From positions 1 through 19,135 of the forward strand of contig JAOZFT010000021.1 of the NCBI GenBank assembly GCA_027492035.1: a stretch of 19,135 bases of DNA. The letters are read 5' to 3'. The notes beneath the pieces are model-generated. The model was given only the letters and a program-made list of their open reading frames with translations, had not been told where the DNA came from and did no database searches. The DNA comes from Thermoproteota archaeon (lineage in GTDB: Archaea > Korarchaeota > JAOZGF01 > JAOZFZ01). The position numbers and the translations under genes were made by a program. Shown one piece after another: positions 1 through 12,820 of this stretch; positions within the stretch are counted from its first letter, which is position 1; each line of letters begins with the position of its first letter.

Positions 1-464
1 TTTCTTTGAATATTTCTAAGCCTCATTTTGTTCTGGAAGTAATGGATACTAATGGAAGCAACGTAAGAACTATTTATGATGGAGAGGATAACGTGTCAAC
101 TCCGTGTTTCCCTCCAGGCGTATACGACCCTTCCTGGAGCCCCGATGATCAATGGATAATATTTGAAAAACCTGTACATTACAACGGGGAAAATGGAGGA
201 GCGGGAGTGTGGCATATTTTCAAAATTAGGTCAGACGGAACTAATTTAATTGATTTAAGTGAATCAGGTGGACATGTAGACTGGGCTGAGTACACCCCTT
301 CATTTTCAAACAATGGGGAATTCGTTGTTTTCAGTGCTAGATACAGCCTCTTTAACTCATCCAAAGTAAATATAGATATATTTGAAATGGACAGTCGAGG
401 AGGGTTACTGAAAAAACTTACAAACAACAAGTTTTACAATGAATTCCCGATTTGGGTTAAGTAA
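1..464 (+). CDS. TolB-like beta-propeller protein, C-terminal fragment
   Basis: This is the 3' part of a gene that enters from the left edge; a TTG at 6 is in frame, but no ribosome binding site can be judged and the true start is probably outside. The about 153 visible residues contain repeated PD40/TolB-type blades: YDPSWSPDDQWIIF, then YTPSFSNNGEFVVFSAR, then an IFEMDSRGG...LTNN...FPIWVK closing strand. Each blade has the usual P-W/F-S-P-D/N-G-x-x-I/V-x-F core. Such propellers usually act outside the cell or at the membrane as protein-interaction platforms or as part of secreted enzymes; the partner is unknown here. It ends 27 bp from the convergent mini-gene on the minus strand. Family assignment is solid; specific function is not. 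Confidence 0.75.
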   Translation, partial: SLNISKPHFVLEVMDTNGSNVRTIYDGEDNVSTPCFPPGVYDPSWSPDDQWIIFEKPVHYNGENGGAGVWHIFKIRSDGTNLIDLSESGGHVDWAEYTPSFSNNGEFVVFSARYSLFNSSKVNIDIFEMDSRGGLLKKLTNNKFYNEFPIWVK

Positions 465-491
465 ACAATTTATTGGTTTCATTAAGTGTCT

Positions 492-659
492 TTATTCTTT
501 CAAGTAAGAATTTATTTCCTTTTTTAATTCATCTATTTCTCTAAGGAATTTTTTGATAGTCCTAGGTAAATGTTCCTCCTGTGCATTGATTGCTTTAGCT
601 GCTTCCTTAAACAGTTTATTTCTCTTTTTTAGTTTCAACAACTCTTCTTTGTTTAACAT
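492..659 (-). CDS. 55-residue helical mini-protein overlapping alaS 3' end, AlaRS-linker-like
   Basis: A small, highly charged, Lys/Glu-rich helical protein of 55 residues. An upstream in-frame start at 680 exists, but the ATG at 659 is preferred because the mRNA-sense sequence AAGGTG lies about six bases upstream. It overlaps the last 44 bases of alaS in another frame, so translational coupling is likely. Residues 20-52 (AAKAINAQEEHLPRTIKKFL...) align without gaps to residues 745-777 of the adjacent AlaRS (LASLLKVNEENVPEAVKNVF...), with 8 of 33 identities and matching hydrophobic positions; this is the A-x(10)-LP-x-T/A-I/V-K helical linker that follows the editing domain in AlaRS. It may be a stand-alone helical partner of AlaRS or a duplicated remnant. 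No known name is recognised. That it is expressed is inferred from the ribosome site. Confidence 0.6.
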   Translation of the reverse strand: MLNKEELLKLKKRNKLFKEAAKAINAQEEHLPRTIKKFLREIDELKKEINSYLKE

Positions 660-3024
660 TTTTAGGCACCTTTTTCTCAAAAAATTTTTTCCTTAACTTC
701 CTCGCCTTTTTTCTTAGGCTCTTCCATTCCTGAAAAACATTTTTTACAGCTTCGGGGACATTTTCTTCGTTTACTTTCAAAAGTGAAGCTAGTTCCCCCA
801 GCATTTCCTCCCTTTCCCTTAATTTCTTAAGGGCTGCTTCTCCAGCACAGAACTCTACCCTAACTACACCATCTTGGATTCTTTTAGTTCTTAGGATCAT
901 TATTACACCTACTTCTCCAGTAGTTTTACAATGTGTCCCGCCACAAGCTTCCACATCTATTCCTGGAATTTCTACAATCCTTAAAGTGCTTTGAGGAACA
1001 GCTCCTCCTTGATAAATTCTGAAACCATAAGTTTCTTCAGCTTTCATTCTTGGCATCCATTTTATTTTAACAGGTAAATTAAGCTCAACTATTCTGTTAG
1101 CTTCATTCTCTATTGCTTCAACCTCGTCTTCACTTAAGGATTTGTAGTGGGTGATGTCAAGTTTTGCGTGGTCAACATCTTTGAAGGCTGAATGTTGAAA
1201 AACCCAAGAACCTAAAACTTTCCTGGCAGCTGCGTTTACTATGTGTGTTGCAGTGTGATGTTTCCTTAAAGCTTCCCTTCGTTCTTTGTCAATATTTCCA
1301 GTTACTGTTTCACCTTCCCTGAAGCTTATTTCATCAAGTTTATGAAGAATAATTTCACCTATTTTTTCAACATCTAAAACTCTGCAACCATTTATGAAAC
1401 CTGTATCATGCAGCTGCCCACCTGAAGTTGGATAAAACAAGGTTTGATTTAACACTGCGAAGCTTCTAATTATCTTTAAAACTTCTGCTTTAAATTTGTA
1501 AGAGTAAGGCTCCTCATAAAAAAGTTTTTTAGTTTCAGGCAGTCCTTCTACAGGCAAAGAAATTCTGCTTTCTTCTTTTTCAACAGGTTTCTTTCTGGTG
1601 ATTTTGAAGTAAAAGTCTTCGGGGATTTTTATGTTTGGGAAATGTTCCTTGATCAAATCTGGAGTTATTCCGTGTGATTCATAGAGTTGAATAAGTTTCT
1701 TTTCTCCTATTTCAGACTCTTCCAGTTTAGACAATGTTTCTTTAGCTCTTTCCATCATTGATTTAAATCTTTGAGTTTCAATGTTTAATATTTCGTTGAT
1801 TTCATCTAGATGTTCCTCAAGTTCAGGGAAAAGAGGCTTAAGCTGTTTAGCATGAAGTTCACAAACATCTATAAGTTCAAAATCCCACTTAAACCTTTTA
1901 ATTAAGCTTAAAGCCCTTCTAAGAATGACTCTAAGGTTGTAACCCCCACCAACATTGCTTGGAATCATTCCGTCAGTTATGGCAAAAGTCAAGGCTCTAG
2001 TGTGATCCGCCACTGCATAAAGAGCTTGTAAAGGCTCTAAATTTTCATTGAGTTCATTAATTGAAACCCCTAATTTCTTAGCTATCACAAGCTTAGCTTT
2101 CCCTACATCCTTCACTTCGTCCAGGTTAAGTACACCAGCGAGTTTCCAGTAACTTAGCAAGAGGTTATTATCAACTGAAACACCTATTACCTTCTTCAAT
2201 TTACTTAAAACAGGTTCAAAAACAACATCATAACTTGTAGGTGAACCTGAAGATATCCAAGGGAACCTTTCCAAACCAGCACCCATATCGATAACTTTAT
2301 AAGGCATAGGTTTAGAGCCTGAAGGGGTGATAAGGAACTCTGTGAAAACAGCGTTACCAAGCTCTAAACCCCTAACAAAATACTCTAAACTGTAACCGAA
2401 AGCACCAGTTCCAAGCCATAAATCCTCCACAAAAACTATTTCTTCCGGTTTAATGCCGAAAACTTGAGTGAGCAATTTATAATCTAACTCTATGCATTTT
2501 TCCTTCCAGTACCCCTCCTTACCATTGTAAAGGCTATGCTGACCAACCATAACGAAACCTGTGTAATGTTTACCTGTTAAACCAACATTTGCGACATCGT
2601 TGAAACGGAGACAAGTTTGCGGCACAATCAAGGGATTAGCTGGAAACTCAAAAATAACATTTCCGTTCTCTACACGGTAAAAATCCACAATAGAAGCGCT
2701 TGTAAAATAAAGGGGGGGATACCATCTTGCCACTACAGGGTAACGAGCTATACTTTTATGTCCATTTTCAACAAAGAATTTTTCTATAGCTTTCCAAGCT
2801 TCAACATAGCTGAATTTTTTCTTTGTAGGAGGGTTTCCGATAAATTGGTAGGGACTGCAGGGTTGATCTGGACAAATTTCTCTTTCGGAATCCAGTGTCC
2901 AAAACCCTTTACCGCATTTCTTACATGTTTTTCTTTGGAACCCTTTGTTAATTAAGAAGGCAAGTTTGTAGTATTTCTGCCACTCCTTCGAAAACCTTTT
3001 TTTGAGAAAGTCTTTAGTGATCAT
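616..3024 (-). CDS. alaS: Alanyl-tRNA synthetase, archaeal type, lacking the C-Ala domain
   Basis: Charges tRNA-Ala with alanine in the cytoplasm and clears mischarged Ser/Gly in a second site. The 802 residues show the archaeal N-terminal zinc cluster (C34, C37, C51, C56), the class II catalytic core (PQTCLRFNDVANVG at 135-148, a glycine-rich stretch at 247-252 with DMGAGLER, and NVGGGYNLRVILRRA at 357-371), and the editing domain with its zinc ligands H590, H594, C694 and H698 (HHTATH and CGGTHC). After the editing domain a charged helix (735-785) runs into a Lys/Arg tail and stops. Archaeal AlaRS proteins are usually about 880-915 residues long, so the C-terminal C-Ala/DHHA1-like domain used for tRNA binding and dimerisation is absent. 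The ATG at 3024 has a GGTGA site nine bases upstream. The mini-ORF at 492-659 overlaps its end. Confidence 0.96.
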   Translation of the reverse strand: MITKDFLKKRFSKEWQKYYKLAFLINKGFQRKTCKKCGKGFWTLDSEREICPDQPCSPYQFIGNPPTKKKFSYVEAWKAIEKFFVENGHKSIARYPVVARWYPPLYFTSASIVDFYRVENGNVIFEFPANPLIVPQTCLRFNDVANVGLTGKHYTGFVMVGQHSLYNGKEGYWKEKCIELDYKLLTQVFGIKPEEIVFVEDLWLGTGAFGYSLEYFVRGLELGNAVFTEFLITPSGSKPMPYKVIDMGAGLERFPWISSGSPTSYDVVFEPVLSKLKKVIGVSVDNNLLLSYWKLAGVLNLDEVKDVGKAKLVIAKKLGVSINELNENLEPLQALYAVADHTRALTFAITDGMIPSNVGGGYNLRVILRRALSLIKRFKWDFELIDVCELHAKQLKPLFPELEEHLDEINEILNIETQRFKSMMERAKETLSKLEESEIGEKKLIQLYESHGITPDLIKEHFPNIKIPEDFYFKITRKKPVEKEESRISLPVEGLPETKKLFYEEPYSYKFKAEVLKIIRSFAVLNQTLFYPTSGGQLHDTGFINGCRVLDVEKIGEIILHKLDEISFREGETVTGNIDKERREALRKHHTATHIVNAAARKVLGSWVFQHSAFKDVDHAKLDITHYKSLSEDEVEAIENEANRIVELNLPVKIKWMPRMKAEETYGFRIYQGGAVPQSTLRIVEIPGIDVEACGGTHCKTTGEVGVIMILRTKRIQDGVVRVEFCAGEAALKKLREREEMLGELASLLKVNEENVPEAVKNVFQEWKSLRKKARKLRKKFFEKKVPKNVKQRRVVETKKEK

Positions 3025-8314: not shown

Positions 8315-9844
8315 ATGCTTTTCGATTCGGTTGAAGAAAACCCGAAAATAGTCGATTTAAATTCTGTAAGTTTAGGGTTGCCTACCTTACTCCTAATGGA
8401 GAATGCAGGAAGGGAAGTCGCGAAAGAAATAATTAAAAGAAGGAAAGTGGAAAAAGAAAAAGTGATTGTTTTCTGTGGTACAGGAAACAACGGAGGAGAT
8501 GGTTTGGTTGCGGCACGCCACTTAGCTAACTATGGAGCAAAGGTAACTGTTGTTTTATTGGGTAAACCTGGAGAAATAAAAACTGAGGAAGCTAAAACTA
8601 ACTGGAAAATTATCCAAAACATGGTTTTCACAGTGAAGAAACAATTTTTAAGGGATACTTCAAACCTTAAAAAAATAAAGGAGTTAATTAAAGAAGCAAA
8701 AGTCGTGGTGGATGCTATACTGGGGACAGGTTTAGAGGGGAAACTAAGAGAACCCTACCTCTCACTCGTGAAATTAATAAACGAATCAGAAATCTTCAAA
8801 GTTTCAGTTGACACACCAACTGGTTTAAACCCTGAAACAGGAGAAATTCACGGTATAGCTGTAAAGGCCGACTTAACAGTTACAATGGGTAAAATGAAGA
8901 AAGGGTTCAAAGGCAAGGAAGAGGTAACAGGGGAAGTAGTAGTTGCAGAAATAGGTTCACCGAAAGAAGCTGAAGTAATAGCTGGGGGAGGAGACTTAAT
9001 GCACGTAATTAAACCCAGAAACATTTACTCACACAAAGGAGACTTTGGAAGAGTACTTATAATTGGGGGAAGCAAGTACTACAGTGGAGCTCCTGCACTT
9101 GCAGCCTTAGCAGCCCTTAACACAGGGGTTGATTTAACTTTTATATTCTGCCCTGAAGAAATAAGTAATGTGTTGAGGGGGTACAGCCCAAACTTGATAG
9201 TTAGAAGCTACCCAGGGTCCTACCTAAACAAAGAAAGCATCAACCACCTCAAAAAACTACTGGACGAAAGTGACAGCGTAATAATTGGTCCAGGTTTAGG
9301 GCTGGAAAGAGAAATAAAAGAAGCAGCTGTTAAAATTTTGAAGGAAGCAGTTAGGAAAAATAAACCAGTACTTGTTGATGCTGATGGTTTAAAAGCCTTA
9401 AAGGGAAAGCTTCAACAAATTAGGAGTGAAAAAATTGTTTTGACACCCCACAGTGGAGAATACAAGTACTTGTTCGGCGAAGAATTACCTGAACAAAGAA
9501 ACCTTGAAGAAAGAGTGTTAAAGGTTAAGGAAACAGCTAAAAAACATGGTTTAACCTTAACTGTTAAGGGACATGTAGACATTGTTTCTAATGGAGAGAA
9601 AGTGAAAGTCAATTTTACAGGGAATCCTGGAATGACTGTTGGAGGAACAGGTGACGTACTTTCAGGGATAATAGCAGCTTTTCTTTCATGGAAAACAAGC
9701 ACTTTCAGAGCTGCGGTTGCAGGAACATACCTGTGCGGTTTAGCAGGTGACAAAGCATTTGAAAAGAAGGGATACCAATTAACAGCTACAGACGTAATCA
9801 AAGAAATACCCTACATACTTAAAAACCAACAAATAAAAGCTTAA
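8315..9844 (+). CDS. nnr: Bifunctional NAD(P)H-hydrate repair enzyme (epimerase + ADP-dependent dehydratase)
   Basis: Repairs damaged (hydrated) NADH and NADPH in the cytoplasm: the N-terminal half epimerises R-NAD(P)HX and the C-terminal half dehydrates S-NAD(P)HX using ADP. Residues 1 to about 215 form the YjeF_N domain, with LLMENAGREVAKE (26-38), CGTGNNGGDGLVAARHL (54-70) and SVDTPTGLNPETG. Residues about 235-509 form the ribokinase-like dehydratase domain, with IGGSKYYSGAPALAALAAL, VDADGLKAL, LTPHSGEY and NPGMTVGGTGDVLSG, where D447 is the expected catalytic residue. The 509 residues match the usual fused length. The ATG at 8315 has AAGGTG ten bases ahead. It appears monocistronic, ending in a hairpin shared with the convergent neighbour. 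Confidence 0.95.
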   Translation: MLFDSVEENPKIVDLNSVSLGLPTLLLMENAGREVAKEIIKRRKVEKEKVIVFCGTGNNGGDGLVAARHLANYGAKVTVVLLGKPGEIKTEEAKTNWKIIQNMVFTVKKQFLRDTSNLKKIKELIKEAKVVVDAILGTGLEGKLREPYLSLVKLINESEIFKVSVDTPTGLNPETGEIHGIAVKADLTVTMGKMKKGFKGKEEVTGEVVVAEIGSPKEAEVIAGGGDLMHVIKPRNIYSHKGDFGRVLIIGGSKYYSGAPALAALAALNTGVDLTFIFCPEEISNVLRGYSPNLIVRSYPGSYLNKESINHLKKLLDESDSVIIGPGLGLEREIKEAAVKILKEAVRKNKPVLVDADGLKALKGKLQQIRSEKIVLTPHSGEYKYLFGEELPEQRNLEERVLKVKETAKKHGLTLTVKGHVDIVSNGEKVKVNFTGNPGMTVGGTGDVLSGIIAAFLSWKTSTFRAAVAGTYLCGLAGDKAFEKKGYQLTATDVIKEIPYILKNQQIKA

Positions 9845-11497: not shown

Positions 11498-12820
11498 TTG
11501 ACTTCAATAACCTTTTATGGGGGAGTAAATGAAGTAGGTGGAAATAAGGTTTTAGTGAAAGATGAAGACGCGAAAGTATTCTTGGATTTCGGGACAAGCT
11601 TCACCAAAAAGAGGAATTTCTACCAAGAACCTTTAATGAAGCCTAAAATGTTTAAGGAACTTTTCAAATTTAATTTATTACCGGAAATTGAAGGATTATA
11701 CTTTTTTAGCACTTCGCAACCCGAAATAGATGGTGTGTTTATTTCTCACGGCCACAGGGATCATTCTGGCTACATCTCATTTTTAAAAAGGGAAATACCT
11801 GTTTTTTGCGGGGAAACAACAAAGGAAATACTGGAGGGGGTTTTTGAAACCCAGCCTAGGAGCTACGAAAACAATATTTCAGGTTTAAAATTTAAAACCT
11901 TCAGGACAGGTGACAAAATAAAAATAGGCTCTTTAACAATTGAGCCGGTTCACTGTGACCACTCAATCCCGGGAGCCTACGGCTTTATTATTTACACTTC
12001 TTCGGGAAGCATTGTTTACACGGGAGATTTCAGGATGCATGGAAAAAAACCTGAGTTGACACAGGATTTCGTAGAAAAAGCTGAAAAAGCTGAACCAGTT
12101 GCCTTAATCACTGAAGCCACAAATTTAACATCTGGGAAAGTTATGAGTGAAAAGGAATTGAAAGAGAAACTGAAAAAATCTGTTAAAAAAACAAAGGAGT
12201 TAGTTTTAGTTAATTTTGCATTAACAGACACGGATAGGTTAAACAGTTTCTACAATGTAGCCGAAGAAACCGGTAGAAAATTAGTTGTAACAACCAAACA
12301 AGCTTACTTGCTTAAAAAACTTGAAAAGGACAAAAGGCTAAACCTACCCAAACTGAGAGAATTAACTGTTTTTTCAAGAGAGAAAAAAAGGGTTTATAGG
12401 TGGGAGAAGGAAATAATTGAGCAAACAGAAACAATTGATTCAGCTTCGCTAGCTAAGAAACAAAACAAATACATAACCATACTTCCATTCTACAGCTTCC
12501 AAGAACTGTTGACAATTAAACCTGAACCAGGAAGCGTTTTTATCCACTCCTCTTCAGAACCTTTCAACGAAGAACAGGAAGTAGAGTACGAAAAACTGGA
12601 AAACTGGTTAATTGCCTTCGGTCTACCGCAGTACCATTTACATGTGTCCGGTCACATAATGCCGTTGGAGTTGCGGGAAGTAATTGAAAGAATTAAACCT
12701 AAAAAGGTTTTCCCAATCCACACTGAACACCCTGAACTCTTCAAAAAATTCATGAAAGACTTAAAAGGAGAAATAGAAATAGTTGAACATGGAAAGGAAT
12801 ATACCTTGGACAAAATTTAA
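11498..12820 (+). CDS. RNase J-like metallo-beta-lactamase/beta-CASP hydrolase
   Basis: A 440-residue cytoplasmic protein of the metallo-beta-lactamase/beta-CASP family that includes archaeal RNase J and related RNA exonucleases. Metal-binding motifs are complete: HGHRDH with H84, H86, D88 and H89; H155 in HCDHSIPGAYG; D177 in GDFRMHG; and the C-terminal H386 in HVSGHIMP. ITEATNL (204-210) matches beta-CASP motif A. A final PIHTEHPELF segment is also typical. It starts with GGVNEVGGNK, a variant of the GGxxEVGxN opening of RNase J, but is shorter than bacterial RNase J and lacks its long C-terminal domain. RNA 5'-end processing or decay is the likely role. The start is TTG at 11498; an in-frame TGA nine bases upstream leaves no alternative. 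Confidence 0.85.
   Translation: MTSITFYGGVNEVGGNKVLVKDEDAKVFLDFGTSFTKKRNFYQEPLMKPKMFKELFKFNLLPEIEGLYFFSTSQPEIDGVFISHGHRDHSGYISFLKREIPVFCGETTKEILEGVFETQPRSYENNISGLKFKTFRTGDKIKIGSLTIEPVHCDHSIPGAYGFIIYTSSGSIVYTGDFRMHGKKPELTQDFVEKAEKAEPVALITEATNLTSGKVMSEKELKEKLKKSVKKTKELVLVNFALTDTDRLNSFYNVAEETGRKLVVTTKQAYLLKKLEKDKRLNLPKLRELTVFSREKKRVYRWEKEIIEQTETIDSASLAKKQNKYITILPFYSFQELLTIKPEPGSVFIHSSSEPFNEEQEVEYEKLENWLIAFGLPQYHLHVSGHIMPLELREVIERIKPKKVFPIHTEHPELFKKFMKDLKGEIEIVEHGKEYTLDKI

Follow-up and report, generated by a model that had tools for sequence, protein, structure and literature searches.

A free-standing helix-loop-helix gene overlapping archaeal alaS as a proposed small subunit of alanyl-tRNA synthetase

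The window (the whole 19,135-nucleotide stretch of archaeal DNA analysed here) carries on its minus strand a gene for an archaeal-type alanyl-tRNA synthetase (AlaRS) and, overlapping the 3' end of that gene, a short open reading frame, referred to here as the mini-gene and its product as mini. The features of the locus are as follows.

492..659, minus strand: mini-gene, 55 aa helix-loop-helix protein, proposed AlaRS zipper subunit (open reading frame, homologues beside alaS, AF2 pLDDT 95)
498..578, minus strand: mini helix 2, residues 28-54, with the K37-F38..E41-I42 motif (AF2/DSSP, motif counts)
591..650, minus strand: mini helix 1, residues 4-23 (AF2/DSSP)
616..659, minus strand: 44 nt shared by alaS (3' end) and mini (5' end) (coordinates)
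616..3024, minus strand: alaS, archaeal-type alanyl-tRNA synthetase, 802 aa, without C-Ala (TIGR03683 positions 3-801 of 902, 863 bits; 3WQY match 16-779)
667..672, minus strand: AAGGTG, Shine-Dalgarno-like, 7 nt upstream of the mini ATG and within alaS (sequence)
679..837, minus strand: AlaRS helix-loop-helix, residues 730-782 (aligns to 2ZVF/3WQY; column counts)

The mini reading frame runs from an ATG at 659-657 to a stop at 494-492, with an alternative in-frame TTG at 680, and its frame differs from that of alaS; it is a separate ORF and not a covalent part of AlaRS. The overlap with alaS and the AAGGTG site, both described in an earlier note on this DNA, are borne out, and AGGA/GAGG-like sites precede the mini ATG in many relatives too. 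The ORF stops after helix 2, without a GG motif or a globular C-Ala subdomain, and a Pfam search of mini gave no match to tRNA_SAD or another editing domain. A frameshifted C-Ala fused to alaS was rejected as an explanation of the ORF, as no C-Ala sequence lies downstream of it. The AlaRS itself has catalytic, tRNA-recognition and editing regions followed by the first post-editing hairpin; the TIGR03683 and 3WQY matches indicate an intact enzyme, editing included, to residue ~782, and the chain ends where the globular part of C-Ala would start. The match to TIGR03683 (archaeal AlaRS) reaches only position 801 of 902 and C-Ala is absent, so the enzyme is indeed shortened, as the earlier note had proposed. 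That note was also right that AlaRS has its own linker: the hairpin is retained and mini is an extra, duplicated one.

The likeness of mini to the AlaRS linker is real, although the figures first given for it (8 of 33 identities at AlaRS 745-777) are not those obtained: BLASTP of mini against its own AlaRS finds 10 identities in 33 positions at 734-766 (E 7e-4). The ORF also matches NCBIfam TIGR03683 at model positions 740-786 of 902 (E 1.4e-4). Against a profile of AlaRS hairpins taken only from archaea lacking mini it scores 36.4 bits, a score reached by none of 5000 composition shuffles (maximum 14.6) and by none of 5000 shuffles that keep the hydrophobic pattern (maximum 30.6). With 0 of 10,000 shuffles reaching the mini score, chance similarity of charged helices is ruled out. 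All eight founding minis match archaeal AlaRS models; Pfam and NCBIfam hold no family for mini, and the AlaRS models are its only consistent matches. Pfam matches to ATP-synt_D, GAS and prefoldin were set aside, being weak, below cut-off and not common to family members.

The same relationship is seen at the level of fold. Searched against the sequences of solved structures, the mini profile gives convincing matches only to 2ZVF (E 4e-8) and 3WQY (E 6e-7). AF2, run with the family alignment, predicts for the window mini a helix (4-23), a loop and a second helix (28-54) with a pLDDT of 95. Foldseek places 2ZVF, the C-terminal dimerization domain of Archaeoglobus fulgidus AlaRS, at ranks 1 and 2 for this model (probability 0.94 and 0.93) and another AlaRS at rank 3; so small a hairpin gives only weak E values (about 0.9). 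The helical subdomain of AlaRS C-Ala is a helix-loop-helix zipper that mediates dimerization (PMC10485164). By sequence profile and predicted structure, then, mini matches specifically the dimerization zipper of AlaRS (PDB 2ZVF), and it likely originated by duplication of the AlaRS hairpin.

A profile built from eight copies detects stand-alone mini in about 70 of 156 Aenigmatarchaeota genomes. A second archaeal phylum has it in 10 of 19 genomes, and in every one of these it overlaps or abuts the end of alaS. Divergent copies are additionally present in five genomes (G115, G181, G182, G190 and G193); since more such copies turned up, the family counts are lower bounds. Mini starts no more than 200 nt downstream of alaS, or overlaps it, at 45 of 74 stand-alone loci, on the same strand and often with an ATGA overlap, and in the second phylum it overlaps or abuts alaS at all 8 further loci and in genome G312. 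For 19 of the 74 there is no alaS in the DNA stretch examined and the neighbours are aMBF1, pus10, thrS or other genes; most of the genomes concerned have an AlaRS of the same type elsewhere. Within family f57, genomes in which this type of AlaRS is not detected also lack mini. Seven of them (G129, G130, G132, G134-G136 and G144) have no archaeal AlaRS of this type at E <= 1e-50 and their sisters have it; replacement by another AlaRS is possible. The earlier note had named two findings that would refute the idea, absence of the ORF from all relatives and a lack of purifying selection outside the alaS overlap, and neither was borne out. Mini occurs beside alaS in two archaeal phyla. Selection was examined with the first, overlapping codons left out. 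Between genomes of one genus or family it is the third codon positions that change most, and the unsaturated pairs have dN/dS values of 0.03-0.44 with a single exception (G194/G195, 0.92). The window mini is not among these pairs, its nearest relative being only about 24% identical. Judged from these substitutions, purifying selection acts on the mini family in its own frame beyond the overlap. Two genomes (G159 and G160; loci L109 and L106) have mini copies with a basic N-terminal extension of 30-40 residues. No description of such a mini-gene was found in the literature searched. The reading given below would provide a probable function for a widespread unannotated small ORF of DPANN archaea, where gene callers readily overlook genes of this kind, small and overlapping as they are.

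The window AlaRS groups with Aenigmatarchaeota AUK218 (67-68% identity, support 1.0), and the AlaRS of the window genome's relatives in its own phylum is only about 40% identical and not accompanied by mini. Two other genes of the window have their best matches within the genome's own family or order (11498-12820 in G001, 8315-9844 in G002). With an Aenigmatarchaeota-like AlaRS among genes of the genome's own lineage, the alaS-mini pair appears, on sequence affinity, to have been acquired horizontally from Aenigmatarchaeota. A misbinned contig was rejected in favour of transfer on account of the same two genes; the contig end could still be a chimeric assembly, since the pair, at window positions 1-3024, lies near it.

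Where mini is present, the second helices of the two hairpins differ in a complementary way. Helix 2 of the AlaRS hairpin in many archaea without mini reads [RK]FFxEWK. In genomes with mini the AlaRS helix reads xLFxxWK, with the first F in 0 of 62 sequences and the W in 59 of 62, and helix 2 of mini reads [RK]FxxE[IVL], with [RK] in 56 of 56, F in 45 of 56 and W in none of 56. An F at the F1 position is found in 0 of 62 AlaRS of mini-containing genomes against 20 of 28 from archaea without mini (Fisher 6e-14), and [RK]F is kept in the AlaRS of all 31 mini-lacking Aenigmatarchaeota read. The window pair fits the partition, with N762-V763-F764..W767 in AlaRS and K37-F38..I42 in mini; in minis of the second phylum L often replaces F. 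Neither these motif counts nor the C-Ala association described below are corrected for phylogeny. Complementary loss in two homologous hairpins is what would be expected if the hairpins now pair with each other, which is an inference.

Families f72, f73, f75, f76 and f9 have no mini gene and a longer AlaRS. In all 17 full-length sequences read from them a mini-like hairpin is followed, in one chain, by the [LIVM]F..[WY]K helix, the order being editing domain, helix 1, mini-like [RK]F hairpin, spacer, [LIVM]F..[WY]K helix and C-terminal region. The mini-like part has a marginal profile score in G201, G202 and G204, where the assignment rests on the motif. As far as profile and motif can tell, the mini-like hairpin inside the AlaRS chain is a natural fusion; the AlaRS of family f67 has an ordinary single hairpin. 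In a tree built on the catalytic-to-editing region of AlaRS, in-chain forms stand next to separate ones, G239/G240 with G153-G165 and G222/G230 with G176-G178, and G209 neighbours G174/G175 weakly. Since the two forms are adjacent several times, the module has switched form, or moved, more than once.

AlaRS lacks C-Ala in four or more separate regions of the tree. Mini is present in 27 of these 28 genomes (Fisher 4e-7, without correction for kinship), the exception being G123, a genome that is 74% complete. Loss of C-Ala thus occurs essentially only with a mini gene. Full AlaRS with C-Ala is retained in many mini-containing genomes, from which it follows that mini arose before, or independently of, C-Ala loss and that the homodimer need not be lost.

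Several reduced or rearranged forms were noted in addition. A free-standing AlaX-like protein with editing domain, hairpin and C-Ala is encoded by a 431 aa frame at L164:2740-4035 (contig G000:C8, about 31739-33034), near a proline-racemase-like gene; the AlaRS of that genome lacks C-Ala, and the C-Ala of the AlaX-like protein might act in trans. In G101 a truncated AlaRS is directly followed by an 89-aa frame of its own for C-Ala (L105:3866-4135), through gene split or frameshift. In family f77 (G242, G243, G245, G246, G248 and G252; L187 and L189) AlaRS lacks C-Ala and about 60 residues corresponding to 280-336 of the window AlaRS; the frames are 590-766 aa long, some ended by contig ends, and mini is unlinked to alaS and adjoins pus10 or thrS.

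The reading we favour, and consider probable, is that mini is a free-standing AlaRS helix-loop-helix dimerization zipper acting as a small subunit of the enzyme. It sets out from what is observed: a gene family that is under selection, linked to alaS and homologous to the zipper, whose motifs are partitioned with those of AlaRS and which has an in-chain counterpart. That the two proteins bind physically is inferred only, as are their stoichiometry, the disappearance of the homodimer and any effect on tRNA charging. The hairpin is what joins two AlaRS chains in ordinary archaea. Here the mini hairpin would substitute for that of the second protomer and pair with the hairpin retained by AlaRS; taking the second protomer's place in this way, it would give an AlaRS-mini hetero-oligomer. 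The gene overlap would couple translation and stoichiometry of the two proteins, the hairpin within the AlaRS chain of related families would be the intramolecular version, and with the zipper supplied in trans the enzyme could lose C-Ala, as in the window. The wider proposal of a detachable zipper, in which the interface was split by complementary motif loss, cis and trans forms were exchanged more than once and the presence of mini permits C-Ala loss, is held with less assurance, the balance of evidence being modestly in its favour. The subunit reading also draws on the confinement of C-Ala loss to mini lineages and on the joint absence of mini and this AlaRS in family f57; weighing against it are the minis that lie away from alaS, the many mini-containing genomes with a full AlaRS and the L in place of F in the second phylum. 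AF2 of a natural read-through of the AlaRS tail and mini (L074) predicts the helices, and their packing is not readable (pTM 0.54).

The chief rival holds that mini is an AlaRS-associated tRNA-binding (or DNA-binding) factor, either holding tRNA-Ala in trans in place of C-Ala or autoregulating alaS. Mini is rich in lysine and arginine, C-Ala loss accompanies it, and the 54-residue C-Ala of Caenorhabditis elegans mitochondria offers an analogue (PMC10485164). We regard this role as unlikely, given that complete C-Ala is kept in many genomes with mini, that the best-conserved mini residues are those of the hydrophobic and [RK]F hairpin core, and that the complementary motif loss in AlaRS indicates an interface between proteins. 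Less likely still is an independent homodimeric helix-loop-helix protein whose role has drifted (to regulation, another synthetase or a ribosome-linked partner) and whose linkage to alaS merely records where it arose; the placing of mini by aMBF1, pus10 or thrS in some families would suit it, and it is opposed by the in-chain versions with their repeated cis/trans switches, by the motif partition with AlaRS and by the joint absence of mini and this AlaRS within family f57. Short helical ORFs arise commonly by chance and mini is a paralogue of the AlaRS hairpin that overlaps alaS, yet a leftover tandem duplication, pseudogene fragment or chance ORF is hardly credible and is refuted for the family by its presence in about 70 genomes, by purifying selection in its own frame outside the overlap and by the shuffles, none of which reached its score.

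Of the two possibilities the earlier note had left open, tandem duplication is retained as the likely source, and mini, being conserved and selected, is not a mere leftover. The other, a trans-acting helical subunit, is strongly favoured by conservation of the gene beside alaS in two phyla and by selection, with binding to AlaRS inferred; the link that note made to a shortened enzyme does not stand, as mini also accompanies full-length AlaRS and is not tied to shortening.

The form described for bacterial and archaeal AlaRS is a homodimer (or tetramer) of nearly invariant four-domain layout (PMC10036535). If the proposal is true, a lineage-wide subunit that replaces half of the dimer interface is a new quaternary architecture for AlaRS and mini is among the smallest synthetase subunits; the system would let one follow how a homodimer interface is subfunctionalized, with the module occurring fused, duplicated and free. 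The closest known element is the zipper of A. fulgidus AlaRS (PDB 2ZVF/3WQY), which has the two-helix hairpin in common with mini by sequence profile and predicted fold; mini differs as a separate product of 35-60 aa whose helix 2 no longer has the W and which no globular C-Ala follows. In C. elegans mitochondria C-Ala is likewise reduced to a short two-helix element, a 54 aa helical remnant, but there it is a covalent part of AlaRS and binds tRNA and DNA (PMC10485164), whereas mini is free-standing. The mini-AlaRS of Tupanvirus is, like the window enzyme, a natural AlaRS without C-Ala; unlike the window AlaRS it is missing the editing domain too (PMC10036535), and no partner gene was found reported in the text consulted. 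AlaX editing proteins resemble mini as free-standing relatives of an AlaRS module, but they carry the editing domain, of which mini has none. In Nanoarchaeum equitans, a DPANN archaeon, AlaRS is likewise encoded by two genes (alpha and beta). There the break falls in the tRNA-recognition domain and the beta subunit has editing and C-Ala (PMC10036535); the window AlaRS is unbroken through editing and keeps its own hairpin, and mini is an additional one.
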